From assembly GCF_000365425.1 (NCBI RefSeq), contig NZ_AQOV01000001.1, positions 3,100,001-3,164,000 of the forward strand: DNA of 64,000 bases, read 5' to 3'. Both the position numbers and the translations under genes were made by a program. The notes below the pieces were generated by a model. The model was not told the origin of the DNA and ran no database searches. It was given only the letters and a program-made list of their open reading frames with translations. Positions within the stretch are counted from its first letter, which is position 1. Every line of letters starts with the position of its first letter. Below, piece by piece: positions 20,560-55,968 of the stretch. The DNA is from Methylomonas sp. MK1 (lineage in GTDB: Bacteria; Pseudomonadota; Gammaproteobacteria; Methylococcales; Methylomonadaceae).

Positions 20560-22260
20560 ATGATCAATTGTATGCATAGACATTATTGCGCGTGGCTGTT
20601 GTATGGCCTGTTAATGCTGTTGAGCACCGCGATACAGGCGGCGGAGATTCAAGTGGCGGTTGATCGCAATCCGGTCGGCCTTAACGAATCGTTTCAGATT
20701 ACCTTCACGGCCAGCGAAGATCCGGACGGCAACCCCGATTTCGCGCCCTTGCAGGAAAATTTCGAAATTCTCAGTCAGCAACGCAGCAGTAATTCGTCGT
20801 GGGTGAATGGCAAGAGCAGTCGTAGCGAACAGTGGGTTTTGCGGGCGATGGCCAAACAAGCCGGCGAGTTGTTCATTCCGCCGATTGCCTTCGGCGCCGA
20901 CAGCAGCAAGCCTTTGAAACTGGTCGTCAACGAAAATACCGCCGCTCCGCAAGGCAACGACGACATATTTCTGGACGTGACAGCCACGCCCGAGCAACCT
21001 TACGTGCAGTCGCAGGTGTTGTACACGCTGAAGTTGTTCCGCAAAGTACAGATTACCCAGGCCAGTCTTAGCGAGCCGGAGATCAAGGATGCGCTAGTCG
21101 AAAAACTGGGCGAGGACAGTACCTACGCCACCCAGATCAAGGGCGTGGATTATTGGGTGACGGAACGCAAATATGCCATTTTTCCGCAGCAAAGCGGCGT
21201 GTTTACCATTGCGCCGTTGATCTTGAATGCCGAATACCTGAGCAATCAACGCCAACCGCGTTTTAACGGCTTCTTCAATCGGCCGGATACAGAAACCCGG
21301 CGGGTGGCTTCCAAAGCCATCACTTTAAACGTACAAGCGGTGCCGGCCAGCTTTAAAGGCCCGAACTGGTTGAGCGCCGAGTCATTAAAACTTAGCGAAA
21401 CCTGGTCCGACTCTAGCCTGCAAACCAAAGTCGGCGAACCCTTGACCCGCACGCTGACGCTCAGCGCGAAAGGTGCCACGGTGGGCCAGTTACCGGAGTT
21501 GCTCGATAAGACCGCTATCGACGGTATCAAAACCTATCCGGATCAACCAGTGCTGAAGGAAGATAAGGAAAGCGACGGCTTGACCGCACTGCGCGAGGAA
21601 AAAATTGCCTTCATCCCTTCCAAGCCCGGCGAATACAGTTTGCCGGCGCTGGACATCGTTTGGTTCAACACCAAAACCCAGAAAACGGAAACCGCGCATC
21701 TGCCCAGCGTCAAGCTGACCGCTTTGGCCGGCGCAACGGATACGCAAGTGCCGGCTACGCCCGCTACATCGAGTGCGCCGCAAGAGCCGGCAACCAGCCC
21801 AGTGACCACGTCGCCGATTACTGTTACCAGCAGCAGCGATACCCGTATTTGGCAAGCGGTATCGGCGACTTTGGCACTGGGCTGGTTGCTGACTATCGTT
21901 GTGTTGTATCGTCGCCCATCCACCAAAGGTTCAACGGCCAAACGCGTTGAGCTTGTGCCGGAAACCGCGCTGGAAAAGACCCTGAAACGCGCTTGTTGGG
22001 AAAATAACCCGCAGGCCGCCAAACAGGCCTTGCTGCAATGGGGTAAGGCCGAGTTCGGCGCGGAGAGTTTGGGGGCGATTGCGGCGCATTGTACCGGGGC
22101 ACTCCGTGAAGAGATTTTGGCACTGAATCGCTTGTTATATTCCGGGCGGAATCAGGATTGGCAAGGCCGGAATCTTTGGCAGGCATTTTCTACCAAACCC
22201 GCAGCGACCAGCGGCGAGGGGAAAAGCAACGACGGTTTAGAGCCCTTGTTCAAGATCTAA
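20560..22260 (+). CDS. batD: BatD-like protein (oxygen tolerance family)
   Basis: A 566-residue exported protein: signal peptide (about residues 8-27), repeated Ig-like beta domains beginning QVAVDRNPVGLNESFQITF, a Thr/Ser/Pro-rich linker near 395-425, one membrane helix (about 430-450) and a short cytosolic helical end. This is the BatD layout. BatD normally follows batA/batB directly; here it follows a CorC gene and an RND adaptor-pump pair. The ATG at 20560 abuts the pump stop with no gap, so expression is tied to the pump. An in-frame ATG at 20572 is an alternative start. Confidence 0.88.
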   Translation: MINCMHRHYCAWLLYGLLMLLSTAIQAAEIQVAVDRNPVGLNESFQITFTASEDPDGNPDFAPLQENFEILSQQRSSNSSWVNGKSSRSEQWVLRAMAKQAGELFIPPIAFGADSSKPLKLVVNENTAAPQGNDDIFLDVTATPEQPYVQSQVLYTLKLFRKVQITQASLSEPEIKDALVEKLGEDSTYATQIKGVDYWVTERKYAIFPQQSGVFTIAPLILNAEYLSNQRQPRFNGFFNRPDTETRRVASKAITLNVQAVPASFKGPNWLSAESLKLSETWSDSSLQTKVGEPLTRTLTLSAKGATVGQLPELLDKTAIDGIKTYPDQPVLKEDKESDGLTALREEKIAFIPSKPGEYSLPALDIVWFNTKTQKTETAHLPSVKLTALAGATDTQVPATPATSSAPQEPATSPVTTSPITVTSSSDTRIWQAVSATLALGWLLTIVVLYRRPSTKGSTAKRVELVPETALEKTLKRACWENNPQAAKQALLQWGKAEFGAESLGAIAAHCTGALREEILALNRLLYSGRNQDWQGRNLWQAFSTKPAATSGEGKSNDGLEPLFKI

Positions 22261-41166: not shown

Positions 41167-42681
41167 ATGTCGTTAGAATGTTTGCTGTATTGGACTTTGA
41201 CGATAACAATGGTGATGCTAAGCGCGCTGTTATGGACCCCGGCGCTGGGGGCAATATTGCTGGTACTGGTCTCCGGCCAGAACAGCCGATTGATCAGAAT
41301 TGTAGCGAATCTATTCAGCCTGGCGGCTTTGCTGATGGCTTGTTTGCTATTGGCCCAGTTCGACGTCAGCGACACCGCGTTGCAGTTCAGCGAGTTTTAC
41401 CCTCTGAACCCCAAACTCGGCAGCGCATACGCACTGGGCGTGGACGGCCTGTCGATGCCGATGCTGGTGCTGGCTACTCTGTTAACTTGTATTTCCCTGT
41501 TGGCTTCCTTCTCCCTGTCCGATAGCATCAAGGGCTATCACATCTCCATTCTGTTGTTGGAATTCGGCATGCTCGGCGTGTTTATGGCACAAGACTGGGC
41601 GCTATTTTACATCTTCTGGGAAGTGACCTTAATCCCGCTGTTTTTCCTGATCGACCGCTGGGGCGGTAAGCGCCGTCACGCCGCCAGCCTGAATTTTGTG
41701 CTGTACACAATGGGCGGGTCGGTGTTCATGCTGCTGAGTTTACTGGCGATCAGTCAATACGATTTGGAAAACCAGGGTTCCCTAATGGCATCCATGGGCC
41801 AAGCCGCGCAAAACATGCCGGTGGTCGAGCAAGTCCTGGTGCTGCTGGGTTTCCTGATCGGTTTTGGCGTAAAAATGCCGATCTTTCCCTTGCATGGCTG
41901 GTTGCCGCTGGCTCACGTCGAAGCACCCAGCCCGATCAGTATCTTGTTGTCCGGTATCCTGCTGAAAATGGGAGCCTATGGCTTATTGCGCTGCGTGGTG
42001 ATGTTGCCGGTTGCCGCCAAACTCATCCAGCCCTTGCTGGTATTTCTAGCGCTGTTCGGCATGATTTACGGCGGCTTGCTGGCCTGGCGGCAGCGCGATT
42101 TGAAAGCCATGGTGGCTTATTCGTCGCTGAGTCATATGGGCGTCGTCTTACTCGGTATCGCCGCACTGAATCAAACCGGCTTCACCGGCGCGATATTGCA
42201 AATGACCGCCCACGGCCTGATTGCCGGCGCATTGTTTCTATTGGTGGGCCTGCTTTACGAACGCACACATACCCGCAACATCCAGGATTACAGTTCGCTG
42301 GTACAAGTCATGCCGCGCTTCGCCACCTTGACCACCTTGACCTTGCTGGCGGCGATGGGCCTGCCCGGCTCAGTGGGTTTTATCGCCGAACTGCACACGC
42401 TAATCGGCGGCTTTCAGCAATGGGGCGGTTTGATGGTGTTTTTTAGTTTGAGCATCTTGATCAGCGCCGCCTATGCCATGCGCACCATCGGCTTGCTATT
42501 TACCGGGCCGGTGAAACCGCAGATGCGCGACATCGCCGATTTGAAATCGCTGGAATTGATGGCCTCAGGAGTGTTGGTAGGCGGGATTGTGTTGTTTGGT
42601 TTGTTGCCGGCGCCTTTGATTGATTTGTCTACTGCGACAGTAGGGAAGATGTTGGCGGTGATGGGGGAGAGGTTGCCGTGA
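41167..42681 (+). CDS. NuoM-like proton-channel subunit, first of four
   Basis: A 504-residue antiporter-type (PF00361) membrane protein when started at the ATG at 41167; the frame is open back to a TTG at 41014, but that stretch does not look like NuoM and would give 555 residues. The key charges are all present: Glu in FYIFWEVTLIP, Lys in FGVKMPIFPLHGWLP, Lys in LLKMGAYGLLR and Glu in VGFIAELHTLIGG. By these it should conduct protons. No other complex I genes (nuoA-K) accompany it; the next gene is dabA after a 423-bp structured gap. I infer a part in an inorganic-carbon pump rather than in respiration. Confidence 0.85.
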   Translation: MSLECLLYWTLTITMVMLSALLWTPALGAILLVLVSGQNSRLIRIVANLFSLAALLMACLLLAQFDVSDTALQFSEFYPLNPKLGSAYALGVDGLSMPMLVLATLLTCISLLASFSLSDSIKGYHISILLLEFGMLGVFMAQDWALFYIFWEVTLIPLFFLIDRWGGKRRHAASLNFVLYTMGGSVFMLLSLLAISQYDLENQGSLMASMGQAAQNMPVVEQVLVLLGFLIGFGVKMPIFPLHGWLPLAHVEAPSPISILLSGILLKMGAYGLLRCVVMLPVAAKLIQPLLVFLALFGMIYGGLLAWRQRDLKAMVAYSSLSHMGVVLLGIAALNQTGFTGAILQMTAHGLIAGALFLLVGLLYERTHTRNIQDYSSLVQVMPRFATLTTLTLLAAMGLPGSVGFIAELHTLIGGFQQWGGLMVFFSLSILISAAYAMRTIGLLFTGPVKPQMRDIADLKSLELMASGVLVGGIVLFGLLPAPLIDLSTATVGKMLAVMGERLP

Positions 42682-43110
42682 TGTTGTTTTTTATCGACCT
42701 TTCTTCATCTTCAGTAATGCGTCGCTATCGCGACAGGTTTTTAAAGTCGGTTCTCGCACCGACAGGCGAGATACTTTCGCTACGAAAACCATCCGTGGTT
42801 TTCGCCCTTCGGGCCAGCCTACCAGCTGTTCAAATTCGTTCCAGACGAATTTGTGCTTGTCCAAAGAAAAGTATCCAAAAGAAAAGACACCCGGATGCCG
42901 CTTTTATCCTGCGCTCCTCGCTTTTGAACGGGGTTGCCGAAAGGGGCTTCCTGCCCCTTCGGCAACGTGCGGCATCCATGCCGCACCCCTGCGGGCTGAT
43001 CCGTTCAAAAGCTCCGGTGCTCGGCGCGGCATGCGGGGTAAAAACCCTTACCAACTTAAGAGACAACGTTTATCGTCCGGTGTGTCAATGAATATGGAAT
43101 TGATTTGATC
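42682..43110. repeat. Palindrome-dense non-coding element between NuoM-like gene and dabA
   Basis: Several perfect inverted repeats follow each other: GTCGC/GCGAC (42721-42734), GTCGGT/ACCGAC (42746-42763), CGAAAACCA/TGGTTTTCG (42783-42804), CAAATTCGT/ACGAATTTG (42831-42853), a near-perfect 14-bp stem with one bulged base (42933-42966) and GTGCGGCAT/ATGCCGCAC (42967-42986). The last two lie inside an outer 12-bp stem GCTTTTGAACGG/CCGTTCAAAAGC (42920-42931 with 43001-43012). Open frames here in both directions are rich in Pro, Arg and Cys and look non-coding. This resembles a dispersed repeat (REP/MITE-like) that folds strongly as RNA. It holds no gene I can support. Confidence 0.7.
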
Positions 43111-46100
43111 ATGCAAGATTCCTTACCGAATATCGCCTCGCCGCGCGACACAATCCTTGATGCAATCCATCACCTGGATCATGTGTTGCCGGGGCAAGCA
43201 CCGATTCACGATTTCGTCCATCACAATACCTTGCATGGCTTTCAACATTTGCCGTTCGAGCAAGCGCTCTCGGAATTTACCCAGCTAACCGGCATCAGTT
43301 GTTATCTGTCCGCCGCACAGTTTCGGGAGTTTTATGCGCAAGGCCGGATAGGCGATGAAGATATTGATGCCGCGTTGGCCCAGCAATTTGGGGATGCGCT
43401 GGAGACTGAGATTTGCAAGGTCAATGGCAAACCCGTTACTCAGCAAATGCTTTACCGGCTGGCCTTGCTGCACGATTTGCAGGCGCTGACGCCCGCGCAA
43501 TTCGATTGGCAGGTGCGAGAACTCGGTGTGTTGGATAAGCCGGCCGCCGCTGGCGAAACGGCTCGTGAATTGTGGGATGCATTGCTCGCCAAGCTGGAGC
43601 TGCAAACGCCGGATTTACATCCGGAAGATTTGCTGGATTTGTCCGCCGAGCAGATCCGGCAATGGCTGCCGGACATAGCAGATGCCGGCGCGGAGCAGCA
43701 GATGCGCCAATACGGCATGGAGAGCCTGACAAATCTGTTTGCGCAGGTCGGCGATAGTTTAACCTTACGCGGCTTACTATTGGCATTAACCGGCAAGGAT
43801 ATTCTCGACTCGGTGCGGCCAACGTTAATTCGCTTATGCGCCTCTTTGCTGGACGAAGGTTTGGCGGCCTGGCGTTTACCCAAGCGGGAAGAGCTGGGTC
43901 TGTATGAAGCCTGGCGCGAGAGTTTGATCTACGATGCGCAACCGGTTTTTCAGGAACTGAACGATTGGCAAGCGATTACGGCGGCACTCCCGGCCGATGC
44001 CATCGACGCCATCGCACAGCAGTTGACGGCGCTGACTGTCCCCGAGCAACGCTGGGCAGGCTATTTGCAAAGACTGGCCTTGGAATTACCGGGATGGTCC
44101 GGCTTGATCAACTGGCGTCAGACCCACCCCAATTATCAAGCAGACGACGACACCAAGCCCTTATTGGCGGATTACTTGGCGATACGCTTGACCTTGGACC
44201 GACTTTACGCGGAACAGCTATGCAAACAATGGCATTGCGAGGCACAACTAGACCGGTTACGCGGCTATTTTTCGAAAAATCTGGCGGAGTTTTCGGTCAG
44301 GCAAGCCTTGTTTCAAGGCCAATTGCCTGAGTATCTGGCACTGGCAGCGCAGTCTTTGCTTAACGACGCGGCGCGGGACAAACAGGCTTGGCAGACCTTG
44401 GCCGAACGGATTTGGACCTGGCAACTTAGCCCGCTGGCTCCCTCAGCCCTCAGTATTTATAACCAGGGTTGGCGGCTGTTTCGCCTTTGCCAATTGCTTG
44501 GGTTAACCGCCAGTGACGTGCAGCGTTCAGAGCCGGCGCCGCTGCTGGAATGCTTGGCCGTCATCGACACTTTCAGCGAGGCTGATCGCAGCACTATTTG
44601 GCTGAACGCCTACGAACGCCACTATCAACAAGCGCTGCTGCAAGCCCTGCACGCCAATCATAATCGCGGGCGCTGGGCGCAACGAGACAGCCGCCCCGCA
44701 GCGCAAATCGTGTTTTGCATGGATGACCGCGAGGAAGGCATCCGCCGCCATTTGGAGGAACTCAATCCGGCCATCGAGACGCTGGGCGCCGCCGGATTTT
44801 TCGGGGTGCCGATGAATTATCAAGGACTGGACGACAGCAAATTGACGGCCTTGTGTCCGGTGGTGGTGGTGCCGGCGCATAATGTTCAAGAATGCAGTCA
44901 ACCAGGCCAGGAAAAAGCCATGGCTCGCCACCGGCAAGGCCGTAATCTGAAACAACGGCTTGCCAATCTGCTCCATCATGGTTTGCGCCGCGATGCGCTG
45001 TTGGCGTATCCGATGATCAATGCCATGGCGCCGTTTACCTTGCTCGGTTTGCTGGCGAAAAGCTTCATTCCGCAAACTCAGCATCAGCTGTTGGCTGCGA
45101 CGGCAAAATCGATGGCGCCTGACGTGGTCTCGCAATTGAATTTTACCGCTGCCGATGATTCGATTCCGGCCACACCGCAACAGCCGCGCCTGGGTTTTAC
45201 CGACCAGGAACAAGCCGACCGGATCGCCGGATTTTTGCGCAATACCGGCCTGACCTACGGTTTTGCCGAATTGGTGGTGCTAATGGGCCATGGCTCGATG
45301 AGCCAAAACAATCCGCATTTATCCGCTTACGATTGCGGTGCCTGTAGTGGGCGGCACGGCGGACCGAACGCCCGGCTGTTCGCGGCGATGGCCAATCGCC
45401 CTGAGGTGCGGCAGTTGCTAGCTGACAGAGGTATTAAGATACCGGACGATACTTGGTTTATCGGCGCAGAGCACAACACCTGCGACGAAGACATCACGTG
45501 GTACGACAGCGCTACCGTGCCGACCGAGCGACGAGCGGCTTTCAACAAATTCGTGCAGCAGATGCAACACGCGCAGCGTATGTCTGCTCACGAGCGTTGC
45601 CGGCGTCTGGCTTCCGCACCGCGCCGGCCAGAACCGCAGCGGGCTTTACGACATTTTCTGGAGCGCGCTACCGACTTTTCCCAGGCTCGCCCGGAGTTAG
45701 GGCATGCCACCAACGCTGCCGCATTGGTCGGCAGACGCTCGTTGACGCAAGGCGCGTTTTTCGACCGCCGCCTGTTTTTGATTTCCTACGATCCCAGCCA
45801 GGACCCGGAAGGTGCAGTTTTAGAGGGCATCTTGCTGGCGGTCGGTCCGGTCGGTGCCGGTATCAATCTGGAATATTATTTTTCCACCGTGAATAACGAG
45901 CGGCTGGGTTGCGGTTCGAAAGTGCCGCACAATCTGACGGGCTTTTGCGCGGTGATGGAAGGCGCCGGCAGCGACCTGCGCACCGGTTTGCCGCGACAAA
46001 TGATTGAGATTCACGAGGCCATGCGCTTACAAATCATCGTCGAGGCCAAAACCTCGGTGCTGGAACAAATTTATGGCCGGCAGGAAAGCTTGCGGGAATT

Positions 46101-46308
46101 GATCGGTGGCGGCTGGGTGCATTTAAGCGCTAAAGATCCGGATAGCGGCGAGATATTTGTGTTTCAGCGCGGTGTTGGATTTGTAAGTTGGCAGCCTAGC
46201 GACATCCAGCTGCCGTTACGGGACAACTCACCGGATTGTTATCGCGAGGAAACCCTGCCGGTGGCGCCGATGCTGATCAAACAGCCCGAGTTCATGGGAG
46301 TTGTCTGA
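43111..46308 (+). CDS. dabA: DabA (DUF2309), inorganic-carbon transporter subunit
   Basis: A protein of about 1065 residues, larger than the roughly 800-residue DabA of Halothiobacillus. The start is the ATG at 43111 (a TTG two codons earlier is in frame). It opens with FVHHNTLHGFQHLPFEQAL, typical of DUF2309. The beta-carbonic-anhydrase-like zinc site is intact: C536 and D538 with R540 in FCMDDREEGIRRH, H727 in LMGHGSMSQNN and C742 in YDCGACSGRHGG, 15 residues after the His, as in characterised DabA. DabA with a NuoL-like DabB is known to take up CO2/bicarbonate energised by ion motive force. The NuoL-like gene starts 2 bp downstream. Residues are seen; transport is inferred from the family. 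Confidence 0.9.
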   Translation: MQDSLPNIASPRDTILDAIHHLDHVLPGQAPIHDFVHHNTLHGFQHLPFEQALSEFTQLTGISCYLSAAQFREFYAQGRIGDEDIDAALAQQFGDALETEICKVNGKPVTQQMLYRLALLHDLQALTPAQFDWQVRELGVLDKPAAAGETARELWDALLAKLELQTPDLHPEDLLDLSAEQIRQWLPDIADAGAEQQMRQYGMESLTNLFAQVGDSLTLRGLLLALTGKDILDSVRPTLIRLCASLLDEGLAAWRLPKREELGLYEAWRESLIYDAQPVFQELNDWQAITAALPADAIDAIAQQLTALTVPEQRWAGYLQRLALELPGWSGLINWRQTHPNYQADDDTKPLLADYLAIRLTLDRLYAEQLCKQWHCEAQLDRLRGYFSKNLAEFSVRQALFQGQLPEYLALAAQSLLNDAARDKQAWQTLAERIWTWQLSPLAPSALSIYNQGWRLFRLCQLLGLTASDVQRSEPAPLLECLAVIDTFSEADRSTIWLNAYERHYQQALLQALHANHNRGRWAQRDSRPAAQIVFCMDDREEGIRRHLEELNPAIETLGAAGFFGVPMNYQGLDDSKLTALCPVVVVPAHNVQECSQPGQEKAMARHRQGRNLKQRLANLLHHGLRRDALLAYPMINAMAPFTLLGLLAKSFIPQTQHQLLAATAKSMAPDVVSQLNFTAADDSIPATPQQPRLGFTDQEQADRIAGFLRNTGLTYGFAELVVLMGHGSMSQNNPHLSAYDCGACSGRHGGPNARLFAAMANRPEVRQLLADRGIKIPDDTWFIGAEHNTCDEDITWYDSATVPTERRAAFNKFVQQMQHAQRMSAHERCRRLASAPRRPEPQRALRHFLERATDFSQARPELGHATNAAALVGRRSLTQGAFFDRRLFLISYDPSQDPEGAVLEGILLAVGPVGAGINLEYYFSTVNNERLGCGSKVPHNLTGFCAVMEGAGSDLRTGLPRQMIEIHEAMRLQIIVEAKTSVLEQIYGRQESLRELIGGGWVHLSAKDPDSGEIFVFQRGVGFVSWQPSDIQLPLRDNSPDCYREETLPVAPMLIKQPEFMGVV

Positions 46309-46310
46309 GT

Positions 46311-47882
46311 ATGGCAGCCTACGCAACCCTGATTCCCTTATTCCCGTTATTGGCCGCGCTGCTGATCGGCGGCCTGCATTTTTGCCGGATTATCGACGGC
46401 GAGGCCGGCGAGAAAACCACGGCCCGGCTGGCTTTAACGGCTATCAGCCTATCGGTGTTGACCGCCTTAAGCTTATTGATAGCTGATTTATCCGGCCAGC
46501 TTCCCGACTCAGTCTCATACGGTACCTGGCTGCGCAGCGGTTCGCTGATCATAGATTACAAACTGACTACCGGCGGTTTCAGTCTAGCTTTGGCGAGTCT
46601 GTTTTCCTTGCTGTTGCTGGTCGCGATACGTTTCTCGGTGAATTATATGCACCGCGAGACCGGCTTCCATCGTTTCTTTTTCGTGCTGAATTTATTCGCG
46701 GCGGCGATGCTGTTATTGGTGTTATCCGGCAATGCGGTGTTTACCTTTATCGCCTGGGAAATAGCCGGGGTTTGTTCTTACTGGCTGATTGCTTACGCCT
46801 ACTACCGCCCCATCGCAGCGCACAATGCCACGCGGGTGTTTGTGACCAATCGCATCGGCGACGGCGGTTTTATTCTGGCCATTGGCCTGGCTTTGGCTTG
46901 GCTGGAAAATGCCGACTGGCAGACTATTAACCTTAGCGCGGCCGATCTGGAGCCTGGCGACGCCACTTTGCTGGCCTTGAGTTTTGCCGTGGCGGCATTT
47001 GCCAAATCCGCGCAGATTCCCTTCACGCCCTGGCTGGCGCGGGCGATGGAAGGGCCGACGCCGTCCAGCGCCATTTTCTACGGCGGCGCCATGATCCATG
47101 CCGGCGTGTTTTTGATTATCCAGTTAGAGCCCCTGTTTATGCAGGCGCCGCTGGCGATGTCTTTGTTGACTGTGATCGGCGCGTTGACGGCGATTTATAG
47201 CTATTGGGTAGGCTTGAGCCAGACCGATATTAAAAGCTCGCAAATCTTTGCCACCTCCGCGCAACTGGGTTTGATGTTTGTTGAATGCGGCTTGGGCTTT
47301 TGGACTTTGGCGGCTTGGCATCTGTGCGCGCATGCCGTGGTGCGTTGCTATTTGCTGCTCACCGCTCCTTCCATCTTACACAACACCCACGGTCAAGCTA
47401 TCCGACCGGTGGCACCGGCGTTGGCAAATTGTCGCTGGGCATTTATCGCGTCCTTGCAGCGCGGTTGGCTGGAACCGGCCATGGATTGGTTGCTAGTTAA
47501 ACCGGTTTTGCGGTTGGCCAAAGATGTGCGGTATATCGACGAGCACATCGTCGATCCTGCCCTAGGTGCGCCGGCACCGGCGATCAAAGCCGTGTCGTCC
47601 TTGGCGCAATGGGAAGAACAAAAAATGGGTGCCAACCTGAATAGCCAGGAAGATAGTTTCGCGCAAGGCAGCGGTTTGGCCGGCAAACTGGCACAGTGGA
47701 CGGCGGCCTTGCTTAACTGGTTTGAATATCACTTTATTCTGCGCGGCATCGGCCGTGATTCGATTCGGCTCGGCCGGCGTCTGGGTCAGGCCGCCAACCG
47801 TTTCGAGCAATTATTGTTACAGCCGCGCTATCTGGCGTTGTTTGTGTTGATCACCTTGATGGTAGCGCTGGGATACCGATGA
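46311..47882 (+). CDS. dabB: NuoL-like proton-channel subunit (DabB-like)
   Basis: A 523-residue PF00361 protein started at the ATG at 46311, 2 bp after the dabA stop. It carries the NuoL-type N-terminal block (NYMHRETGFHRFFFVLNLF), Glu in TFIAWEIAGVCSYW, Lys in FAKSAQIPFTPWL, a His (MIHAGVFLI) in place of the second Lys and the GLSQTDIKSSQIFATSAQLG segment. It lacks the long lateral helix of complex I NuoL; the C-terminal 130 residues instead form an amphipathic/soluble segment and one last helix. Position and subfamily identify it as the DabB partner. It overlaps the next gene by ATGA. Confidence 0.87.
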   Translation: MAAYATLIPLFPLLAALLIGGLHFCRIIDGEAGEKTTARLALTAISLSVLTALSLLIADLSGQLPDSVSYGTWLRSGSLIIDYKLTTGGFSLALASLFSLLLLVAIRFSVNYMHRETGFHRFFFVLNLFAAAMLLLVLSGNAVFTFIAWEIAGVCSYWLIAYAYYRPIAAHNATRVFVTNRIGDGGFILAIGLALAWLENADWQTINLSAADLEPGDATLLALSFAVAAFAKSAQIPFTPWLARAMEGPTPSSAIFYGGAMIHAGVFLIIQLEPLFMQAPLAMSLLTVIGALTAIYSYWVGLSQTDIKSSQIFATSAQLGLMFVECGLGFWTLAAWHLCAHAVVRCYLLLTAPSILHNTHGQAIRPVAPALANCRWAFIASLQRGWLEPAMDWLLVKPVLRLAKDVRYIDEHIVDPALGAPAPAIKAVSSLAQWEEQKMGANLNSQEDSFAQGSGLAGKLAQWTAALLNWFEYHFILRGIGRDSIRLGRRLGQAANRFEQLLLQPRYLALFVLITLMVALGYR

Positions 47883-49420
47883 ATACCCCTATTGTTTTCT
47901 GGCATGCAGTGGCGGCTGTGCCGCTGTTAACGGTGTTGACGTTGGTGCCGTTGCTGACCATGTTGGCGGTGGTATTCGCCAAGCCGATTTATAGCGTACG
48001 GCTGGCCTTTGGCGGCGCGCTGCTAAACGTGGTGCTCAGCATTTATTTGTTGCTGATATTCGATTCGGAAACCCCCGGCATCCATCTTGCCGAACATTTT
48101 CAATTGCTGGGGATGAACTATCGGGTTGGTGTGGACGGCACCAATATTCTGTTTATTCCGCTGACGGCAATTTTAGGTTTGCTGGCGCTGGTGTATACCC
48201 TGATCACCCGGCATCGCAATGATCGTCTGTTTATCGCCTGCTTACTGGCCTATCAAGGCATTTTAATCGGTGCCTTTGCGGCACTAAACACCCTGCAATT
48301 CTGGTTCTGGTGCTTGCTGGAACTGGTGCCGGTGGTGTTATTAACGGTGTTCGCCGGTACCGGCAAACAGCGCAACCAGGTAGTGAAATCGGTATTGCAA
48401 TACTGGCTGTCCGGTCTGGCGATGAGTCTGGCCGGTTTTGTGCTGTTGAGCTTTGGTTTGGCGCAAAACGGGCTGGATCTAAGTTTTGATTGGTTAACCT
48501 TGAAACATCACAACCTGGCGATTCCCAACGAAACCCTGATCTTTATCCTGCTGTTTTTCGGCTTTGCCATCCGCATGCCGCTGTTTCCGTTTCACGCCTG
48601 GCTACCCTTGCTGGCCGAACACGGCACGGCTGCCAGCGCGGCGATTTTTCTAACCGGCTTGAAGCTGGGCATTTACGCCTTGATCCGCTTCATTCTGCCG
48701 CTAGTGCCCGGCGCCGCCGAGCAGTGGGTGCATTTTGTCGTCGATCTGGGCTTGATAGGCATTTTTTACGGCGCCTTGCTGGCACTGATGCAAATCAATA
48801 TGCGCCGGCTATTGGCGTTTGCGGTGATCAGTCATACCGGCATGTTGGTGATAGGTGTGTTTTCCTTCAACGATTTTGCGTTGGAAGGCAGTATTCTGCT
48901 GTCGATAGCTTACGGTCTGGCGACTGCCGGCATGCTGTTCAGTATCGGTTTGATTTACGAACGCACTCGTACGTCCTTTCTGCCGCGTTTGGGCGGTTTG
49001 TTCGAGACCAATTCGACGATTGCCTTGCTGTTTTTGATTTCCGCGCTCAGCACCATGGTCATGCCCGGCACGCCGGGTTTTGACGCGGCGCATTTGTTGA
49101 TCGAGGGCACCATCGAGGAACACGGTTGGTATATCGCGATTGCGATTTTGCTGGGTAACGTGCTGGGCGCGGCTTTTTTGCTCTGGGCGTTTCAGCGGCT
49201 GTTCATTGCGCATCCCAAACGCTTCGTGCAGCCCTACGGCAGCATTCATCACCCGGTGTTAAAAGAACGGATTATCGCTGTGACTATTTGCGGCTTGCTG
49301 ATCGGCACCGGTTTTTACACCACCCCCTGGCTGAAATATATCGATCAGGAAGCCAAGGAAATCGGCGAACATTATCCGGAACATCACAGCCACCACATGA
49401 ACGGCCCGCACCATGATTGA
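47879..49420 (+). CDS. NuoM/NuoN-like subunit with altered channel residues
   Basis: A 513-residue PF00361 membrane protein with about 14 helices and a His-rich C-terminus. The Glu in FWCLLELVP and the Lys in TGLKLGIYALIR remain. The usual Lys of the GFAxKxPLFPFHxWLP helix is Arg (GFAIRMPLFPFHAWLP) and the last-channel Glu of PGxxGFxxE is changed (PGTPGFDAAH). This suggests a specialised or weakened proton path. It overlaps dabB by 4 bp and the next NuoM-like gene by 8 bp, so all three should be made together. Confidence 0.82.
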   Translation: MNTPIVFWHAVAAVPLLTVLTLVPLLTMLAVVFAKPIYSVRLAFGGALLNVVLSIYLLLIFDSETPGIHLAEHFQLLGMNYRVGVDGTNILFIPLTAILGLLALVYTLITRHRNDRLFIACLLAYQGILIGAFAALNTLQFWFWCLLELVPVVLLTVFAGTGKQRNQVVKSVLQYWLSGLAMSLAGFVLLSFGLAQNGLDLSFDWLTLKHHNLAIPNETLIFILLFFGFAIRMPLFPFHAWLPLLAEHGTAASAAIFLTGLKLGIYALIRFILPLVPGAAEQWVHFVVDLGLIGIFYGALLALMQINMRRLLAFAVISHTGMLVIGVFSFNDFALEGSILLSIAYGLATAGMLFSIGLIYERTRTSFLPRLGGLFETNSTIALLFLISALSTMVMPGTPGFDAAHLLIEGTIEEHGWYIAIAILLGNVLGAAFLLWAFQRLFIAHPKRFVQPYGSIHHPVLKERIIAVTICGLLIGTGFYTTPWLKYIDQEAKEIGEHYPEHHSHHMNGPHHD

Positions 49421-50984
49421 TAATTTCCCTTGGCTGTCCTTGTGTCTGGCTTGGCCGCTACTGGGAGCGCTGTCGCTGGTATTCATCCGGGATGGCCAGT
49501 TAGCCAAGCGCGGTGCATTACTGGTAGCCGTTGTCGAATTGCTTTTTACCATCGCCGCGGCTTGGGTTTTCGATACTGCGCGCGGCGATTTTCAGTTGCT
49601 GGAAGACTATCCCTGGATACCCGGCCTGAATATTCACTATCAACTCGGTGTAGACGGTATCTCGATACTGTTCTTGCCGATGACTGCCTTGCTGACGCTG
49701 ATGACTTTGTTGGCCAGCTGGAATAGCGTACAACGACTAAACCGCTTTCAGTTGGCGCTGATGCTGGCACTGGAAAGCGTGACCATCGGCGTGTTCACGG
49801 CTCTGGACCTAGCCTTGTTCTTCCTGTTTTGGGAGCTAACCTTGCCGCCGATTTTCTTCCTGATCGGTTTATGGGGGATCGGCGCCGAGCGACGGCATGC
49901 GGCGATGAAATATACCTTGTACATGTTATTCGGCGGTGTGCCCTTGTTGTTCGGGATTATTTTGTTGGCGATTAATCATGCGCACTATACCGGGGGGGCG
50001 ATTCCGCAGGATTTGGCTTTCAGTCTGCCGGTGTTGTTGAACACACCGATACCCGAGTCGGCGCAAGGCTTGATTTTTTTGTTGCTGATTTTGGGGTTTG
50101 CGGTAAAAGCGCCGTTACTGCCCTTCCACACCTGGTTGCCGACCACGGCAATGGAGGCACCGACTTTTCTGAGCGCCTTGCTGGTCGGCTTGAAATTGGG
50201 CGTTTACGGCATCATTCGCTTTGCGATACCACTGGCTCCGCAAGCGGGTCTGGAGCATCGCTGGCTGTTGGCGATACTCGGTGCGGTAACGCTAATTTAC
50301 GGTGCCTTGATCGCGTTGCAGCAAACCAATCTGCGCCGCTTGTTGGCTTATTCCAGCATTAGCCATGTCGGGTTGGTGATTGTCGGTATCGCCACTTTTA
50401 ATCTGCAAGGTTTACAGGGCGCGGTCATGCAGTTGCTGAATTTCGGCATTGTCGCCGGTAGCTTGATGCTAATCGCCGGCATGATTCAGCAACGTTTGGG
50501 TAGTACCGATTTGGTTCATCTCGGCGGCTTGGCCAAGCCCATGCCGCGGCTGACCGTCTTATTCTTTGTATTTGCGCTGTCCAGCATCGGCGTGCCCGGC
50601 ACGAATGGCTTCCCGGCCGAATTACTGATGGTTCTCGGCGCTTTGCAAGCCTATCCGGCACTGGCGATGGTGGCTTTGTTCGGTGCGGTATTGGGCGCGG
50701 CGTATCTGTTGGGTTTTGTCAGACGAGCATTTTTCGGCCCGGTTGTGCACGACAGCGTAGCCAAAGCACAGGATCTGCGTCCCCGTGAGCTGATACTGTT
50801 GGTCGTGCCTGCGCTGCTGGTATTGGTGATAGGCCTTTATCCGCAATGGCTGTTGTCCTGGCAAGAAACCAGTTTGCAGTCCTGGTGGCAGCGGTTAAGC
50901 GTGGCGGTTCCGCAGGCGACAACGGAATCGAAACTCACGCAGAGAACCACAATTTCAGGTGCGCAGAGCGAGGGTTCAATATAA
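49413..50984 (+). CDS. NuoM-like proton-channel subunit, last of four
   Basis: A 523-residue PF00361 protein with the full set of channel charges: Glu in FFLFWELTLPPIF, Lys in FAVKAPLLPFHTWLP, Lys in GLKLGVYGIIR and Glu in GTNGFPAELLMVLG. It resembles NuoM of complex I most closely among the four. The start lies inside the 3' end of the previous gene (8-bp overlap). It closes the tightly packed dabA-dabB-NuoM-NuoM unit; a carbonic anhydrase gene with its own possible promoter follows 148 bp on. Confidence 0.87.
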   Translation: MIDNFPWLSLCLAWPLLGALSLVFIRDGQLAKRGALLVAVVELLFTIAAAWVFDTARGDFQLLEDYPWIPGLNIHYQLGVDGISILFLPMTALLTLMTLLASWNSVQRLNRFQLALMLALESVTIGVFTALDLALFFLFWELTLPPIFFLIGLWGIGAERRHAAMKYTLYMLFGGVPLLFGIILLAINHAHYTGGAIPQDLAFSLPVLLNTPIPESAQGLIFLLLILGFAVKAPLLPFHTWLPTTAMEAPTFLSALLVGLKLGVYGIIRFAIPLAPQAGLEHRWLLAILGAVTLIYGALIALQQTNLRRLLAYSSISHVGLVIVGIATFNLQGLQGAVMQLLNFGIVAGSLMLIAGMIQQRLGSTDLVHLGGLAKPMPRLTVLFFVFALSSIGVPGTNGFPAELLMVLGALQAYPALAMVALFGAVLGAAYLLGFVRRAFFGPVVHDSVAKAQDLRPRELILLVVPALLVLVIGLYPQWLLSWQETSLQSWWQRLSVAVPQATTESKLTQRTTISGAQSEGSI

Positions 50985-51019
50985 CTTTTGCTTTAGCCCA
51001 GATTTAGATCGCAAAGCAA

Positions 51020-51047
51020 TTGCTATATAGTTTCGATTCGATATAGT
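51020..51047 (+). promoter_or_regulatory. Candidate promoter for the carbonic anhydrase-SulP pair
   Basis: TTGCTA (51020-51025) and TATAGT (51042-51047) with 16 bp between them; TATAGT also occurs at 51026-51031, giving a short direct repeat. The leader would be about 80 nt. It would allow the carbonic anhydrase to be made independently of the dab genes. Confidence 0.4.
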
Positions 51048-51132
51048 ATTACCGATAAACGCACATTCTTTTGAATAACCCGTTCCGGATACGCTCCAGA
51101 ACGCATAGTGATAGAAAATAAGGACACCCATT

Positions 51133-51765
51133 ATGATTACGCCCACGAAATTACTACTTGAAAACAAAGCCTGGTCGGAAGAAGTCAGTAGAAAAGACCC
51201 CGAATTTTTTGTCCAGTTGGCCAAAGAACAAAAGCCCGACTTTTTGTGGATAGGCTGCTCGGATAGCCGAGTGCCCGCTGAGACAGTCGTCAACGCCAAG
51301 CCCGGCGAAATTTTTGTGCATCGCAATATTGCCAATCAGGTCATCGTCACCGATTTCAATTGTCTGAGCGTTTTGCAATATGCCATTTCGGTCTTAAAAG
51401 TTAAGCACGTTATCGTTTGCGGCCATTACGGCTGCGGCGGCGTAAAAGCGGCCTTGCAGCCGCAAAAATCCGATCTGGTTATCACCAATAAATGGTTGCT
51501 GCACATTAAAGATATATACCGTTTGCATCAGGAAGAGCTTGAGTCTATTCCGCCGGAGAAAAAAACGGATCGCCTGATCGAGCTGAATATCATCGAGCAA
51601 GTTTATCGCCTAGCGCACACCTCGATTATTCAGTCGGCCTGGAAACACGGGCACAAACCCACTTTACATGGCTGGGTATACGGCCTGAACGACGGCTTGA
51701 TCAATGAATTGATCAAACTCGACCATAACACGCAAATCAATCCGATTTACCGCTATGCCGACTAG
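51133..51765 (+). CDS. can: Beta-class carbonic anhydrase
   Basis: A 210-residue beta-CA. Zinc ligands C42, H98 and C101 (IGCSDSRVP and CGHYGCGG) and the Asp44-Arg46 dyad are in place, so it should interconvert CO2 and bicarbonate. No signal peptide, so cytosolic. It sits between the dab genes and a SulP transporter, a setting that points to carbon supply. RBS AAGGA lies about 10 bases before the ATG. Confidence 0.95.
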   Translation: MITPTKLLLENKAWSEEVSRKDPEFFVQLAKEQKPDFLWIGCSDSRVPAETVVNAKPGEIFVHRNIANQVIVTDFNCLSVLQYAISVLKVKHVIVCGHYGCGGVKAALQPQKSDLVITNKWLLHIKDIYRLHQEELESIPPEKKTDRLIELNIIEQVYRLAHTSIIQSAWKHGHKPTLHGWVYGLNDGLINELIKLDHNTQINPIYRYAD

Positions 51766-51797
51766 CATCCGGATTTTCGCAACGACTGGGTAAACCA

Positions 51798-53357
51798 ATG
51801 AAATCTCAATTGAATTCTTATATGAAACATCTGCACCAGGACTTACCGGCCGGTATCGTAGTCTTTCTGGTGGCTTTACCGTTATGCCTGGGGGTTGCAT
51901 TAGCGTCCGGTGCGCCTTTGTTTTCCGGGATTATTGCCGGCTTGGTGGGCGGTATTCTGGTTTCCTGGGCCAGCGGCTCGCAATTGAGCGTTTCCGGACC
52001 GGCAGCCGGATTGACGGTTATCGTCTTCGAAGCCATCGAAACCCTGGGTGGCTTTGGCGGTTTTTTGCTGAGCGTGGTGCTGGCCGGCGGCTTGCAAATA
52101 GTGCTGGGCTTTTTGAAAGCCGGGGTGATTGGTGCATTTTTTCCGGCTTCGGTAATTAAAGGCATGCTGGCGGCGATTGGCTTGATTTTGATCATCAAGC
52201 AAACGCCGCATGCCACCGGTTACGATACCAGCTTCGAAGGCGATGAAAGTTATATGCAGGAGAGCGCGGGATCGAGCTTTTTTGAATTGTCGGAGGCCTT
52301 GGAAGCGATAACCCCCGGCGTGACTATCGTCAGTGCCGTGGCGCTATTGATTTTGATCGTTTGGGATTCCGGATTTATCAAGCAGTTCAAACTTTTAAAG
52401 CTGATTCCCGGTCCGTTGCTGGCCGTTATTTGGGGTGTCAGTTTCAACGCGCTGGCTTTGCGTTTTGCGCCCGATATGATGATTGGCGAAAAACACCTGG
52501 TATCGCTTCCCGAGTTGGGCAGTACCGCCAACTTTATCAACCAATTGCGCCTGCCGGATTTCAGTTATTTCAGCAATCCGAAAATTTACAGCGTAGCGGT
52601 GACCATTGCGATTATCGCCAGCCTGGAAACCTTGCTGAGCATAGAGGCGGTCGATAAATTGGACCCGCACAAACGCGTTGCGCCTACCAATCGGGAGCTT
52701 AAAGCCCAGGGCCTGGGCAACATGGTCAGCGGCTTGATGGGCGGCCTACCGATTACCGCCGTGATCGTGCGTAGTTCGGCCAATATCAATGCCGGCGGCC
52801 AGACCAAAATAGCGTCATTCTTACACGGCGTTTTGCTATTGGTCAGCGTGCTGTTTTTTGCGAAATATTTGAACATGATTCCGCTGGCCTGTTTGGCGGC
52901 AATTCTGCTGCAAACCGGCTACAAACTAGCGAAGCCGGCACTGTTCGTGGAGTTTTATCGCAAGGGCTGGAATCAGTTCGCGCCGTTTGCGATTACCGTT
53001 GTGGCGATTTTATTCACTGACCTGTTGCTGGGTATTGCCATCGGTATGGCTGCCGGATTCTACTTCGTCTTGAAAGCCAACTTCCATGCGGCGATTACCT
53101 TGACCCAGCACGGCGACCATTATTTATTGCGCCTGCATAAGGATGTCTCCTTCTTGAATAAGGCCTTGCTACGCAAGCATCTATCCGCCATACCCAATGA
53201 TTGTGAATTGCTGATTGACGGCTCCAAAGCGTTGTTCATCGATCAAGACATCATTGAAACCATCGCGGATTTTCTACTGGCCGCGCGGGATCGCGGTATT
53301 AATTTAGAAATCCAGGGCTTTAGCGTCTCATGTGACATTTCTTCGTCCGCTCACTAA
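51798..53357 (+). CDS. SulP-family anion (bicarbonate/sulfate) transporter
   Basis: A 519-residue SulP transporter: membrane region (about residues 12-430) starting DLPAGIVVFLVALPLCLGVALASG, the SGPAAGLTVIV motif, LETLLSIEAVDKLDPHKR and a short STAS-like cytosolic end (about 440-515). SulP proteins next to carbonic anhydrases often carry bicarbonate (BicA-like). With a CA gene 32 bp upstream and dab genes before that, bicarbonate is the most likely substrate, but sulfate cannot be excluded from sequence. Confidence 0.88.
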   Translation: MKSQLNSYMKHLHQDLPAGIVVFLVALPLCLGVALASGAPLFSGIIAGLVGGILVSWASGSQLSVSGPAAGLTVIVFEAIETLGGFGGFLLSVVLAGGLQIVLGFLKAGVIGAFFPASVIKGMLAAIGLILIIKQTPHATGYDTSFEGDESYMQESAGSSFFELSEALEAITPGVTIVSAVALLILIVWDSGFIKQFKLLKLIPGPLLAVIWGVSFNALALRFAPDMMIGEKHLVSLPELGSTANFINQLRLPDFSYFSNPKIYSVAVTIAIIASLETLLSIEAVDKLDPHKRVAPTNRELKAQGLGNMVSGLMGGLPITAVIVRSSANINAGGQTKIASFLHGVLLLVSVLFFAKYLNMIPLACLAAILLQTGYKLAKPALFVEFYRKGWNQFAPFAITVVAILFTDLLLGIAIGMAAGFYFVLKANFHAAITLTQHGDHYLLRLHKDVSFLNKALLRKHLSAIPNDCELLIDGSKALFIDQDIIETIADFLLAARDRGINLEIQGFSVSCDISSSAH

Positions 53358-53400: not shown

Positions 53401-53439
53401 AATCGGTTTCGGAAAAAGCCGCGCCGAAACCGATTTTTT
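53401..53439 (+). terminator. Strong intrinsic terminator after the SulP gene
   Basis: AATCGGTTTCGG (53401-53412) and CCGAAACCGATT (53424-53435) form a perfect 12-bp stem with an 11-nt loop, followed by a T-run to 53439. It closes the plus-strand carbon-uptake island. Confidence 0.9.
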
Positions 53440-53604
53440 GACGCATGTATTTCGGGTGTTTTTGATAGCGGAGTCTAGTTGATAAACTCCGCCTTGCTAA
53501 AAATCTGGTCAGTCGGCTTTTAATCGCTTAGCCCTATAATAGCCGGGGCGGTTGGCGACTTTCGCCTCGCCAATTTTTCCGATCTCCCCGAGGCTATATC
53601 AACC

Positions 53605-55968
53605 ATGTCCAGAATGCGCGTCGCCTTCTTGTCGATTACCGGTGTTATTTTCAGCGGAATTGCTTTGATAATAGGGCTGTTGCTGGCATCTCTGCCCGCC
53701 GAAAATGGCGAGGTGGTTTTGCCCGGCCTTTCCAGTCAAGCCAGCGTTAAAAGCGATACGTTCGGCGTGCCGGAAATCGAAGCAACGCAGCGGGAAGACG
53801 CCTATCGTGTGCTGGGCTACTTGCATGCCCGCGACCGTTTGTTTCAGATGGAATTGATGCGCCGCAAAAGCACCGGACGCCTAGCCGAGCTGTTTGGCGC
53901 CAAGGCACTGGATGCGGACCGCAAACAACGCGTCTATCAAATGGACCGCGCCGCGCAACGCATCGTTACCGATTTGCCGCCGGCCCAACGTCTGGCATTG
54001 CAGGCTTATGTCGATGGGGTGAATCAATTCATCGACCATGCCCGTGTCCTGCCGCCGGAGTTTCTGGCGCTGCGCCACCGCCCCGAGACGTGGCGCCCCG
54101 AAGACAGCATTCTCGTGGTGTTGGCGATGTTTCAAACCCTGAACGGCCAGGAACAGGACGAGCGCATGGTCAGCGTCATGGCTCGCGCACTGCCTCAGGA
54201 GCTGGTGACGTTTTTGACGCCGGATACCGATCCCTACGCCAAGGAATTGGTCGGCGGCAGCCAACCGCGCCGCTTCCAGCCAGCGATTCCGCTTGAGGCG
54301 CTGGCCAGCCTGCCCGGCAGCGATTCAACGTTGGCACTTAATCAAGCAGTGGATGCCGAAAACGTGGTGTCCGGATCCAACAACTGGGTGGTCGCCGGCA
54401 GCAAAACCAGCGATGGCCGGGCGATGATTGCCAACGACATGCACTTGGCGCTGAATGTGCCCAACATCTGGTACCGCGCCGATCTGAACTACGACAATCG
54501 CCATATCTACGGCATCACCTTGCCCGGCGTACCCGCCGTAATCGTCGGCGGCAACGATGATGTGGCCTGGGGCTTTACCAATGTCACCGGCGACTTCCTG
54601 GATTTGATCCGCCTGGACGTCGATCCGGCCCATCCCGGCCAATATCGCACGCCGCATGGCTGGCAAGCATTTACCGAACACCAGGAAACCATTCGGGTTA
54701 AAGGCGAGCCCGACGTGACGCTGACCTTGCGCGACAGCGAATGGGGGCCGGTATCGGATCAAGATTTACTGGGTCAGCCAGTGGCGATCAAATGGACTGC
54801 GCTTGAGCCGCACTTTGTGGACCTGGGCCTGATGGATATGGACCAAGCCCGTAATACCCAACAAGCCGTGGCGATAATGAATCGGTTCGGCGGGCCGCCG
54901 CAGAATGTGGTGATTGCTGATCGTGACGACCATATCGCTTGGACTTACATGGGGCGCTTCCCCAAGCGCCGCGGATTCGACGGTCTGATCAGCCAGTCTT
55001 GGGCCGACGGCAACCTTGATTGGGCTGGCTCTATCCCTCCCGATGAATTGCCACGGCTGCTAGACCCGGCGGACGGTTTTATTGTCACCGCCAACAATCG
55101 TACCCTGGGCCGGGATTATCCTTATGTGATCGGCCATAACTGGTCCTTGAGCTATCGGGCGCACCGCATCGAGGAATTGCTGAAAAGTCGCAATGGCCTG
55201 ACCGAACAAGATTTGCTGGCAATCCAACTGGATACCCGCAGTGAAGTTCTGGCGTTTTATCGGCAATTGGCACTGGACGCTTTAGACCATCTGAGCGACG
55301 CGGACGACGGTTTGCAAAAAGCCCGCAACGCCATCGCGGCCTGGGACGGCTATATGCAAACCGATAGCCTAGGCGCGCCAATCTTGAGTGAATTCCGAAC
55401 CCGCCTCGCCGGCGCAGTGTTTGAAAAAGTGGTCGCTGCTAGCCAAACGCTGGACCCGCAATTTCGTTACGCCTGGCGGGAAATGGAAACGCCGCTCCGG
55501 CAATTGCTGACACAACGGCCCAAGGGTGTGCTGAATCGGCGTTATCAAGACGATTGGCAGGCCATGATCGTGGCAACCTTGCGGCAAACCGTGCAAGCGC
55601 TGCGTGAGAAATATCCCGCTGTCGAACCCGATCAACTGACCTGGGGTATGACCCACCCGGTTAATTTACGCCACCCGTTCAGCAAAGTAGCGGCTGTGTT
55701 GAGCGGCGTACTGGACATGCCCGCCTTCGACAGCGACGGCTGCGCCAGCGTATGCGTCAAGGTCATGGACAACGCCCATGGCGCCAGCGAACGGCTGGTC
55801 TTGTCGCCCTCCCACCCGGAAGCCGCCATATTCCACATGCCGGGCGGCCAGTCCGGCCACCCTTTATCAGCACATTACCGCGACCAGCAGAATTTTTGGC
55901 GGGATGGAGTGGCCTTGCCGTTGCGGTCGGCGAAGGCTGAGGAGGTGTTGCAGTTTGTGCCGCAATGA
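53605..55968 (+). CDS. Penicillin acylase family Ntn hydrolase
   Basis: A 787-residue precursor with an N-terminal membrane or signal helix (about residues 8-28), alpha-subunit part (DTFGVPEIEATQREDAYRVLGYLHARDRLFQMEL), a spacer and the catalytic Ser258 in SGSNNWVVAG, which becomes the N-terminus of the beta subunit after self-cleavage. Asn and Arg/Trp blocks (ANDMHLALNVPNIWY, GVPAVIVGGNDDVAWGFTN) follow. Homologues cleave amide bonds in acylated compounds, including acyl-homoserine lactones in some species; the substrate here is unknown. It stands alone after the carbon island. Confidence 0.92.
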   Translation: MSRMRVAFLSITGVIFSGIALIIGLLLASLPAENGEVVLPGLSSQASVKSDTFGVPEIEATQREDAYRVLGYLHARDRLFQMELMRRKSTGRLAELFGAKALDADRKQRVYQMDRAAQRIVTDLPPAQRLALQAYVDGVNQFIDHARVLPPEFLALRHRPETWRPEDSILVVLAMFQTLNGQEQDERMVSVMARALPQELVTFLTPDTDPYAKELVGGSQPRRFQPAIPLEALASLPGSDSTLALNQAVDAENVVSGSNNWVVAGSKTSDGRAMIANDMHLALNVPNIWYRADLNYDNRHIYGITLPGVPAVIVGGNDDVAWGFTNVTGDFLDLIRLDVDPAHPGQYRTPHGWQAFTEHQETIRVKGEPDVTLTLRDSEWGPVSDQDLLGQPVAIKWTALEPHFVDLGLMDMDQARNTQQAVAIMNRFGGPPQNVVIADRDDHIAWTYMGRFPKRRGFDGLISQSWADGNLDWAGSIPPDELPRLLDPADGFIVTANNRTLGRDYPYVIGHNWSLSYRAHRIEELLKSRNGLTEQDLLAIQLDTRSEVLAFYRQLALDALDHLSDADDGLQKARNAIAAWDGYMQTDSLGAPILSEFRTRLAGAVFEKVVAASQTLDPQFRYAWREMETPLRQLLTQRPKGVLNRRYQDDWQAMIVATLRQTVQALREKYPAVEPDQLTWGMTHPVNLRHPFSKVAAVLSGVLDMPAFDSDGCASVCVKVMDNAHGASERLVLSPSHPEAAIFHMPGGQSGHPLSAHYRDQQNFWRDGVALPLRSAKAEEVLQFVPQ

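Follow-up and report, generated by a model that had tools for sequence, protein, structure and literature searches.

Could a membrane arm like that of respiratory complex I be geared to carbonic anhydrase (CA) chemistry without any electron transfer? The question is raised by a locus in the genome of Methylomonas sp. MK1 (5.23 Mb, our G000), in a 64-kb stretch that we call the window (G000:C1:3100001-3164000). Seven genes lie there in the order M1-dabA-L-M2-M3-beta-CA-SulP, all on the + strand (Table 1): dabA encodes a long DabA, L a NuoL-like protein, and M1, M2 and M3 are related to NuoM. A first-pass annotation of this DNA had described an enlarged DabA-type carbon-uptake island with four proton channels, and Pfam matches to all seven genes bear out its gene list, strand and order. 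The analysis below indicates that the gene set is probably an enlarged, membrane-powered CO2 trap that is kept in many bacteria.

Is this gene set a chance assembly or a unit? Scanning genomes with DabA turned up 193 loci that encode a relative; the best 80 of these were kept with their record titles, and the hosts include Methylomonas, Methylobacter, Nitrosospira, Nitrosomonas, the symbionts of tubeworms and clams, Thiothrix, Magnetococcales and others. Fifty-four of the named loci had enough flanking sequence (1.6 kb before and 5 kb after), and in 52 of these M1-DabA-L-M2-M3 follow one another in that order. Departures are L084, with M1-DabA at the locus and L-M2-M3 on another contig of the same genome, and the Thiothrix locus L103 (7478-20942), which runs M1-DabA-L-DabA-L-M2 to the end of the stretch, with dabA-L duplicated, and was counted as non-matching. 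In one genome (G027), a 1613-aa open frame suggested a fusion of DabA with its neighbour; this was rejected, as M1 uses a different frame there and the open frame merely continues beneath it without a stop.

An even sample of the phylum gave a similar picture. Sixty-nine of its 398 genomes were matched, and 36, including G000, have a long DabA, defined as a near-full-length match to model A1 and judged from match lengths; G356:C13 (a 1010-aa frame, 638 bits) went into the shorter class, and its region, L214, holds only DabA and L on a contig that starts at DabA. Among the 35 long-DabA genomes besides G000, 31 carry the five genes in one cluster. In the remaining four, two regions are cut inside DabA by contig ends (L212, L213), and in the other two (L208, L209) DabA stands by itself, M1-M3-L-M2 lying on a separate contig; clusters rearranged to M1-M3-L-M2, with the long DabA on another contig, are those of G197 and G201 (L227, L228). 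A contig end also cuts an M gene in L174 and L228, and M2 of L174 is split over two frames. The named and phylum-sample sets are not independent, because some contigs of the sample equal named ones in length and look identical to them (e.g., L159 and L110). As a control, we took 20 regions with a shorter DabA, from 18 of the 33 sample genomes that have only this form plus two regions of G000; none of the 20 has an M gene, 19 having one DabB-type gene and one being fused. Within the genus, 21 of 25 genomes have long DabA together with M2 (at least 79% identity) and the other four have neither, some of the matches being contig-end fragments.

One locus breaks the clean rule. G032 (L218, 3965-15278) carries DabA-L-M-M with a DabA of the other branch of the tree; its L is NuoL-like (683 aa), both of its M proteins have the four key residues described below, and its cluster holds no M2-type subunit. 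A divergent gene alongside it resembles a SulP-CA fusion. Overall, M1, the long dabA, L, M2 and M3 are an old unit, near-strictly co-inherited and persisting when the cluster is broken, so the enlarged DabA-type unit of the first-pass annotation stands.

Could M1, M2 and M3 nevertheless be a separate H+ or Na+ antiporter, merely co-transcribed with a two-subunit DabA-L for pH or ion balance and not coupled to it? NuoM-like proteins are akin to antiporter subunits, other DABs are two-gene units, and DabA lies apart from M1-M3-L-M2 in G197 and G201. However, L, the presumed partner of DabA, remains with the M genes when DabA moves, and co-occurrence in the genus is complete (21 of 21 against 0 of 4). 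The best NCBIfam models are those of NuoM and NuoL, with the Mrp models far under their cut-offs (the small Mrp subunits were not searched for). We consider an uncoupled antiporter rather unlikely.

What does the long DabA do, and does it resemble a characterized enzyme? The obvious reference is DAB2 of Halothiobacillus neapolitanus, described from cryo-EM as a proton-driven vectorial CA, in which a Glu of the DabA finger (Glu444) is essential and the Glu of transmembrane helix (TM) 5 in the partner is replaced by Ile151, read as holding the channel open (available text of PMC13144422). The window DabA residues C538, D540, R542, H729 and C744 align with C351, D353, R355, H524 and C539 of DabA2 (P0003 numbering). 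Across 80 long DabA sequences (79 loci and the window), the zinc ligands Cys, His and Cys are present in all 80, and the Asp and Arg in 79. With a PF10070 protein bearing these zinc ligands and the Asp-Arg dyad, next to a NuoL-like partner, the window set is placed by its sequence in the DAB/DAC superfamily, with CO2 hydration as its predicted function. The likeness of DabA to beta-CAs is drawn from the VIA-align result and from the sequence match to DabA2; a Foldseek search of the predicted DabA model against PDB gave no match at E <= 0.001. DabA and L were each predicted as a single chain, and DAB2 structures were not among the best 50 matches listed for either model, the structure set running to April 2026 and possibly not including DAB2.

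The finger and the partner depart from DAB2. The Glu444 column holds Glu in 2 of the 80 long DabAs and Gly in the window DabA, and four residues past it stands a Lys in 76 and an Arg in 4, whereas the Glu is present in all 19 DAB2-type DabAs (12 by alignment, 7 by motif). TM5 Glu shows the opposite distribution, with 67 of 68 L sequences having it and none of the 19 DAB2-type DabBs. The window set thus has neither the finger Glu444 nor the replaced TM5 Glu of DAB2-type systems. The gating ion pairs are kept in L as well (E144 67/68, R175 67/68, D178 68/68, K229 68/68), and the K399/D400 columns, a weakly aligned region, contain no Lys or Asp. The predicted model of L spans NuoL 1-562 using only ~408 residues, the position of the gap not being fixed by the comparison; modelled in this way, L is shorter than NuoL and lacks part of its fold, probably the TM12-14 region.

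How many of the four antiporter-like proteins could carry protons? The four key complex I residues are TM5 Glu, TM7 Lys, TM8 Lys and TM12 Glu (NuoM 144, 234, 265 and 407). All four are invariant in M1 (each in 71 of 71 sequences) and in M3 (57 of 57). In M2, on the other hand, three of the four are missing from every one of the 64 sequences (TM5 Glu gone, TM7 Lys changed to Arg, TM12 Glu replaced), while TM8 Lys is kept in all 64 and an invariant His follows the replaced TM12 position; R232, K262, D402 and H405 of M2 are invariant (32/32 each). M2 is not decaying and is among the best-conserved subunits, because, when ten Methylomonas-type loci were compared, its identity among the four closest was 97–98% (M1 97–99%, DabA 87–90%) and its ratio of nonsynonymous to synonymous differences (pN/pS) was ~0.03, against 0.12–0.15 for DabA. 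The best reading of these residues would give the arm two intact proton units, M1 and M3, and not the four channels first proposed, with M2 altered and L a shortened, DabB-type protein.

A related possibility is that Na+ serves as the coupling ion, a case that has been made for MpsAB (told in the available text of PMC13144422), or that M2 conducts another species, its charged set being altered to the invariant Arg, Lys, Asp and His. M1 and M3 match NuoM models, however, and DAB2 is reported to be Na+-independent (PMC13144422, available text); among the alternatives, this one appears to us the least probable.

Trees were built with a quick method, SH-aLRT support only and a midpoint root, the placement of long branches being unsure. 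M1, M2, M3 and L each form one clade (SH-aLRT 99–100%, 12 rows each), M2 and M3 being sisters (98); the three M proteins group with NuoM of complex I, and L joins DabB and NuoL. A single clade (99) takes in the long DabAs, among them two DabAs with partners on another contig, and its sister is a set of four DabAs from two-gene loci (L197, L051b, L077b and L214; 96). On the opposite side of the DabA tree lies the DAB2-type set, and the four-gene variant L218 branches at the base of that set.

How might the five proteins work together? The reading that we favor, with guarded confidence, is a five-subunit "extended DAB", a proton-driven vectorial CA whose complex-I-like arm would have two intact proton units. 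M1, DabA, L, M2 and M3 would assemble as one membrane complex, with DabA as the zinc-containing, beta-CA-like enzyme held on L, and protons moving inward down their gradient, via M1 and M3, into the L/DabA unit would drive or gate the one-way hydration of CO2 to bicarbonate. L and the DabA finger may together mimic NuoL, with TM5 Glu, TM7 Lys and the gating ion pairs in L and the finger Lys/Arg near the position of the NuoL TM12 Lys, so that the complex-I charge pattern would be continuous over L, M1 and M3; M2 would be a conserved non-pumping linker or an altered conduit. Spending 2–3 protons per CO2 (versus ~1) could make the pump workable at low proton-motive force (PMF). The bicarbonate would feed phosphoenolpyruvate (PEP) carboxylase and other anaplerotic carboxylases, with CA and SulP as accessories. 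Taking a pKa of 6.35 and pH 7.5, the limiting bicarbonate/CO2 ratio at 80 mV comes to 10^2.5 with a single proton and to 10^5.2 with three, and extra energy per bicarbonate is thermodynamically possible.

Several points weigh against this reading. With one proton at 150 mV the ratio is already 10^3.7, thermodynamically ample at ordinary PMF, so the extra protons would be useful mainly at low PMF or for speed or one-way control. Two other tested positions of M3 are unlike NuoM (at NuoL K305, Arg in 54 sequences and Leu in 3; at NuoL H338, Phe in 57 of 57). The three aligned fingers of the L197-type two-gene DabAs also lack the Glu, and TM5 Glu is present in all four DabBs of this second two-gene type (L197, L051b, L077b, L214); consequently, neither the loss of the finger Glu nor the retention of TM5 Glu strictly depends on M genes, and the simple story that the finger Glu was lost as a consequence of M-gene gain was rejected. 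A free soluble CA in the operon would tend to short-circuit bicarbonate accumulation; it fits a near-equilibrium supply of carboxylases better than a carboxysome-type concentrating system. A SulP or CA gene lies within 2.5 kb in 14 of the 41 complete loci that have 2.5 kb on both sides (drawn from 92 five-gene loci of the named and unnamed sets, which overlap), and a Pfam scan of 20 neighbouring proteins at nine loci found no carbon-uptake family in 15. Finally, the physical assembly, proton direction, stoichiometry and physiological role are what we infer from the observed gene set, co-inheritance, residues, predicted folds and genome context, the folds being single-chain models of DabA and L.

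Would the M subunits then be structural or gating, with the protons per CO2 left as in DAB2? The adequacy of one proton at normal PMF, the two departures of M3 and the high conservation of M2, although all 64 of its sequences are without three key residues, would all suit such a role. The four key residues kept in M1 (71/71) and M3 (57/57) are, however, difficult to account for unless protons or charge are transferred, and we regard a purely structural or gating role as unlikely.

What would a proton-driven, five-subunit CO2 trap do in this host? The genome has three matches to PF02461 (the ammonia/particulate methane monooxygenase family) and one PEP carboxylase. RuBisCO was found in none of the 25 genomes of the genus, host included, and in 5 of the 41 genomes of the whole set of relatives. 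NuoH (PF00146) had no match in the host genome, and the six PF00361 matches all lie inside three DabA loci, two of which encode further DabAs of ~865 aa, each with one DabB-type gene; other complex I or redox subunits and CupA were not searched for. The host is therefore a methanotroph without a detected RuBisCO or complex I gene and with three DAB systems. The methanotroph setting that had been suggested is thereby upheld, and the remark that the window holds no other complex I genes extends, for PF00361 and NuoH, to the whole genome. In the genus, strong NuoH matches occur in 1 of 25 genomes, and eight others have only weaker ones (E about 1e-33 to 1e-37), which are perhaps hydrogenase-4-like clusters; the genus seems to be mostly without complex I.

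The lack of a complex I gene in G000, as judged from the PF00361 and NuoH searches, would also suit the reverse use of the machine, in which an exergonic DabA reaction pumps several ions outward per turnover and so conserves energy, a proposal printed in 2017 for YbcC operons (PMC5700660, available text). On the other hand, DAB2 was later reported as a proton-driven CA that accumulates dissolved inorganic carbon (available text of PMC13144422), the zinc site is conserved in the long DabA, and hydration at pH 7.5 yields ~1.2 log units at equal concentrations, which is little for outward proton pumping. We hold reverse use to be very unlikely.

Do the CA and SulP genes belong to the unit? They follow M3 in 11 named Methylomonas-type loci; other loci have a SulP-like gene upstream or none seen within the flank, and in L065 and L216 the SulP gene is long and also matches CA weakly, which suggests a SulP-CA fusion. 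The five carbon-uptake proteins among the 20 scanned neighbours are SbtA (Nitrosospira L058 and Nitrosovibrio L068), a CsoSCA-like protein (L058), SulP (L097) and an LCIB-like CA (L112). Two of these matches, the CsoSCA-like one (L058:17063-18178, − strand, 35 bits) and the LCIB-type CA (L112:16967-18136, − strand, 28 bits), are barely over the Pfam cut-offs. From the flank and neighbour counts, the conserved core consists of five genes that have carbon-uptake company in part of the loci, and beta-CA plus SulP is a Methylomonas-type add-on outside it. The earlier picture of a pump with its own CA and bicarbonate carrier thus applies to part of the loci only, and of the seven-gene order, a search for which had been suggested, it is the five-gene core that is widespread. 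The window SulP scores 118.2 bits against the curated BicA model, below its cut-off of 880; it may be a SulP bicarbonate carrier of another kind.

Within the window, dabA, L, M2 and M3 follow one another closely in a head-to-tail arrangement, adjacent genes overlapping or lying apart by a few bases. The open frame of M1 begins at 41014 and has two plausible ATGs, one of them the previously chosen start at 41167; a start near 41209 is favoured because residue 69 of the open frame is the first one that the NuoM profile match covers. M1 and dabA are ~430 bp apart, and the gap sequence recurs at the same place in other Methylomonas-type loci. A 137-aa frame in it (42678-43091) was considered as a small extra subunit like hneap_0908 and rejected, since it has no family match and the stretch is conserved intergenic sequence. 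In L049 the element matches on the opposite strand relative to L048, L052 and L067, all four loci being oriented alike, so it may be invertible or mobile. The perfect intrinsic terminator that had been noted after SulP was found again. Downstream of the island lies a penicillin-amidase family gene (53605-55968), and elsewhere in the window are a VWA/TPR gene (12903-14756) and a BatD gene (20560-22260).

Table 1. Features of the five-gene core and its flanks (window positions).
Feature	Position	Strand	Evidence
M1, NuoM-like antiporter subunit	41209..42681	+	PF00361 (Proton_antipo_M) 234.5 bits, TIGR01972 476 bits
M1-dabA gap	42682..43100	.	no convincing gene; 137-aa frame without family match
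dabA, long form, 1065 aa, beta-CA-like catalytic subunit (predicted)	43111..46308	+	PF10070 851 bits
L, NuoL-like, DabB-type subunit	46311..47882	+	Proton_antipo_M 125 bits; borderline Proton_antipo_N 24.6 against cut-off 24.5
M2, NuoM-derived subunit	47879..49420	+	PF00361 132 bits
M3, NuoM-like subunit	49413..50984	+	Pfam 222 bits, TIGR01972 486 bits
beta-carbonic anhydrase (Can-like)	51133..51765	+	PF00484 (Pro_CA) 176 bits, NF007756 272.5 bits
SulP-family anion transporter, candidate bicarbonate importer	51798..53357	+	PF00916 (Sulfate_transp) 185 bits
Intrinsic terminator	53401..53440	+	12-bp perfect stem (53401-53435), 11-base loop, U-run; -18.6 kcal/mol, z -2.5

If the favored reading is true, a complex-I-type arm can indeed be geared to CA chemistry without electron transfer. 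DabAs with one, three or four antiporter-like subunits would form a natural series from which to learn the proton cost per CO2 of a vectorial CA, and the way in which energy is handed on between antiporter-like subunits, a central open question for complex I. The occurrence of the unit in methanotrophs, ammonia oxidisers, sulfur-oxidising symbionts and Magnetococcales means that it bears on CO2 acquisition by low-energy bacteria, even those without RuBisCO. The suggestion that a set with more membrane genes may move more ions dates from 2017 (PMC5700660, available text), and the interpretation from which we started was partly right and partly anticipated there. As far as we searched, the near-strict five-gene unit, its persistence in broken clusters, the conserved losses in M2, and the finger Glu-to-Lys switch together with TM5 Glu in L are new; our literature search did not find the five-gene rule or the M2 and finger changes, although an earlier description in the 2019 Nature Microbiology DAB paper is possible.

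How, then, does the set compare with known systems? It shares with DAB2 (available text of PMC13144422) a PF10070 enzyme whose zinc and Asp-Arg site is identical, and a NuoL-like partner, which in the present set, too, probably departs from the usual NuoL TM12-14 arrangement; it differs in having five genes instead of two subunits, a finger Lys/Arg instead of Glu, a retained TM5 Glu and dabA before L. In the DAB1 operon of H. neapolitanus, NuoL precedes DabA1 and PII follows it (PMC4633670, available text), and we did not file the present set with DAB1, whose gene order differs; as DabA1 has 1046 aa all the same, DabA length alone is not diagnostic. DAC itself is treated as a multisubunit or a two-subunit complex in the available text of PMC10880623 and PMC12628692. 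The four-gene locus of G032 likewise combines a long DabA, NuoL- and NuoM-like genes and a SulP-CA fusion-like divergent gene, with a DabA on the DAB2 side, an L of NuoL length and no M2 type.

A close printed relative is "clade C" of the YbcC (COG3002) operons in the 2017 COGNAT study (PMC5700660), with ybcC/dabA upstream of a nuoL homologue and with NuoM and SulP genes; it very likely includes the present gene set. The available text of that study, the only work in the searched literature found to mention NuoM with DabA/YbcC, speaks in passing of an unknown complex whose additional membrane genes might mean more ions, and contains neither a five-gene rule nor an analysis of residues, and it mentions no degeneration of M2 and no connection with CO2. 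From the respiratory complex I arm, with whose NuoM and NuoL the M proteins and L fall, the set differs in a host that has neither a NuoH match nor a PF00361 gene outside its DabA loci. Finally, cyanobacterial NDH-1MS (NdhF3-NdhD3-NdhB plus CupA) carries a CO2-hydrating protein at the NuoL-like end of a multi-antiporter arm, as the present set would, and it also has one antiporter-type subunit in which charged residues of the lateral path are gone, there the NuoL-like NdhF3 and here M2; however, NDH-1MS is a redox-driven full complex I, and the fold of CupA is unlike known CAs (PMC6981117, available text). It is conceivable, though doubtful, that the present set is a redox-free counterpart of NDH-1MS, in which NuoL and three NuoM-derived subunits on a beta-CA-like enzyme operate in reverse, powered by incoming protons, as a "low-gear" CO2 trap, with M2 now a conduit for CO2, bicarbonate or force and the finger lysine of DabA completing the charge chain that NuoL completes by itself. 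The many-subunit form could then be ancestral, because a second multi-M architecture (that of G032) falls on the DAB2 side of the DabA tree, and the two-gene DABs would be stripped-down descendants.

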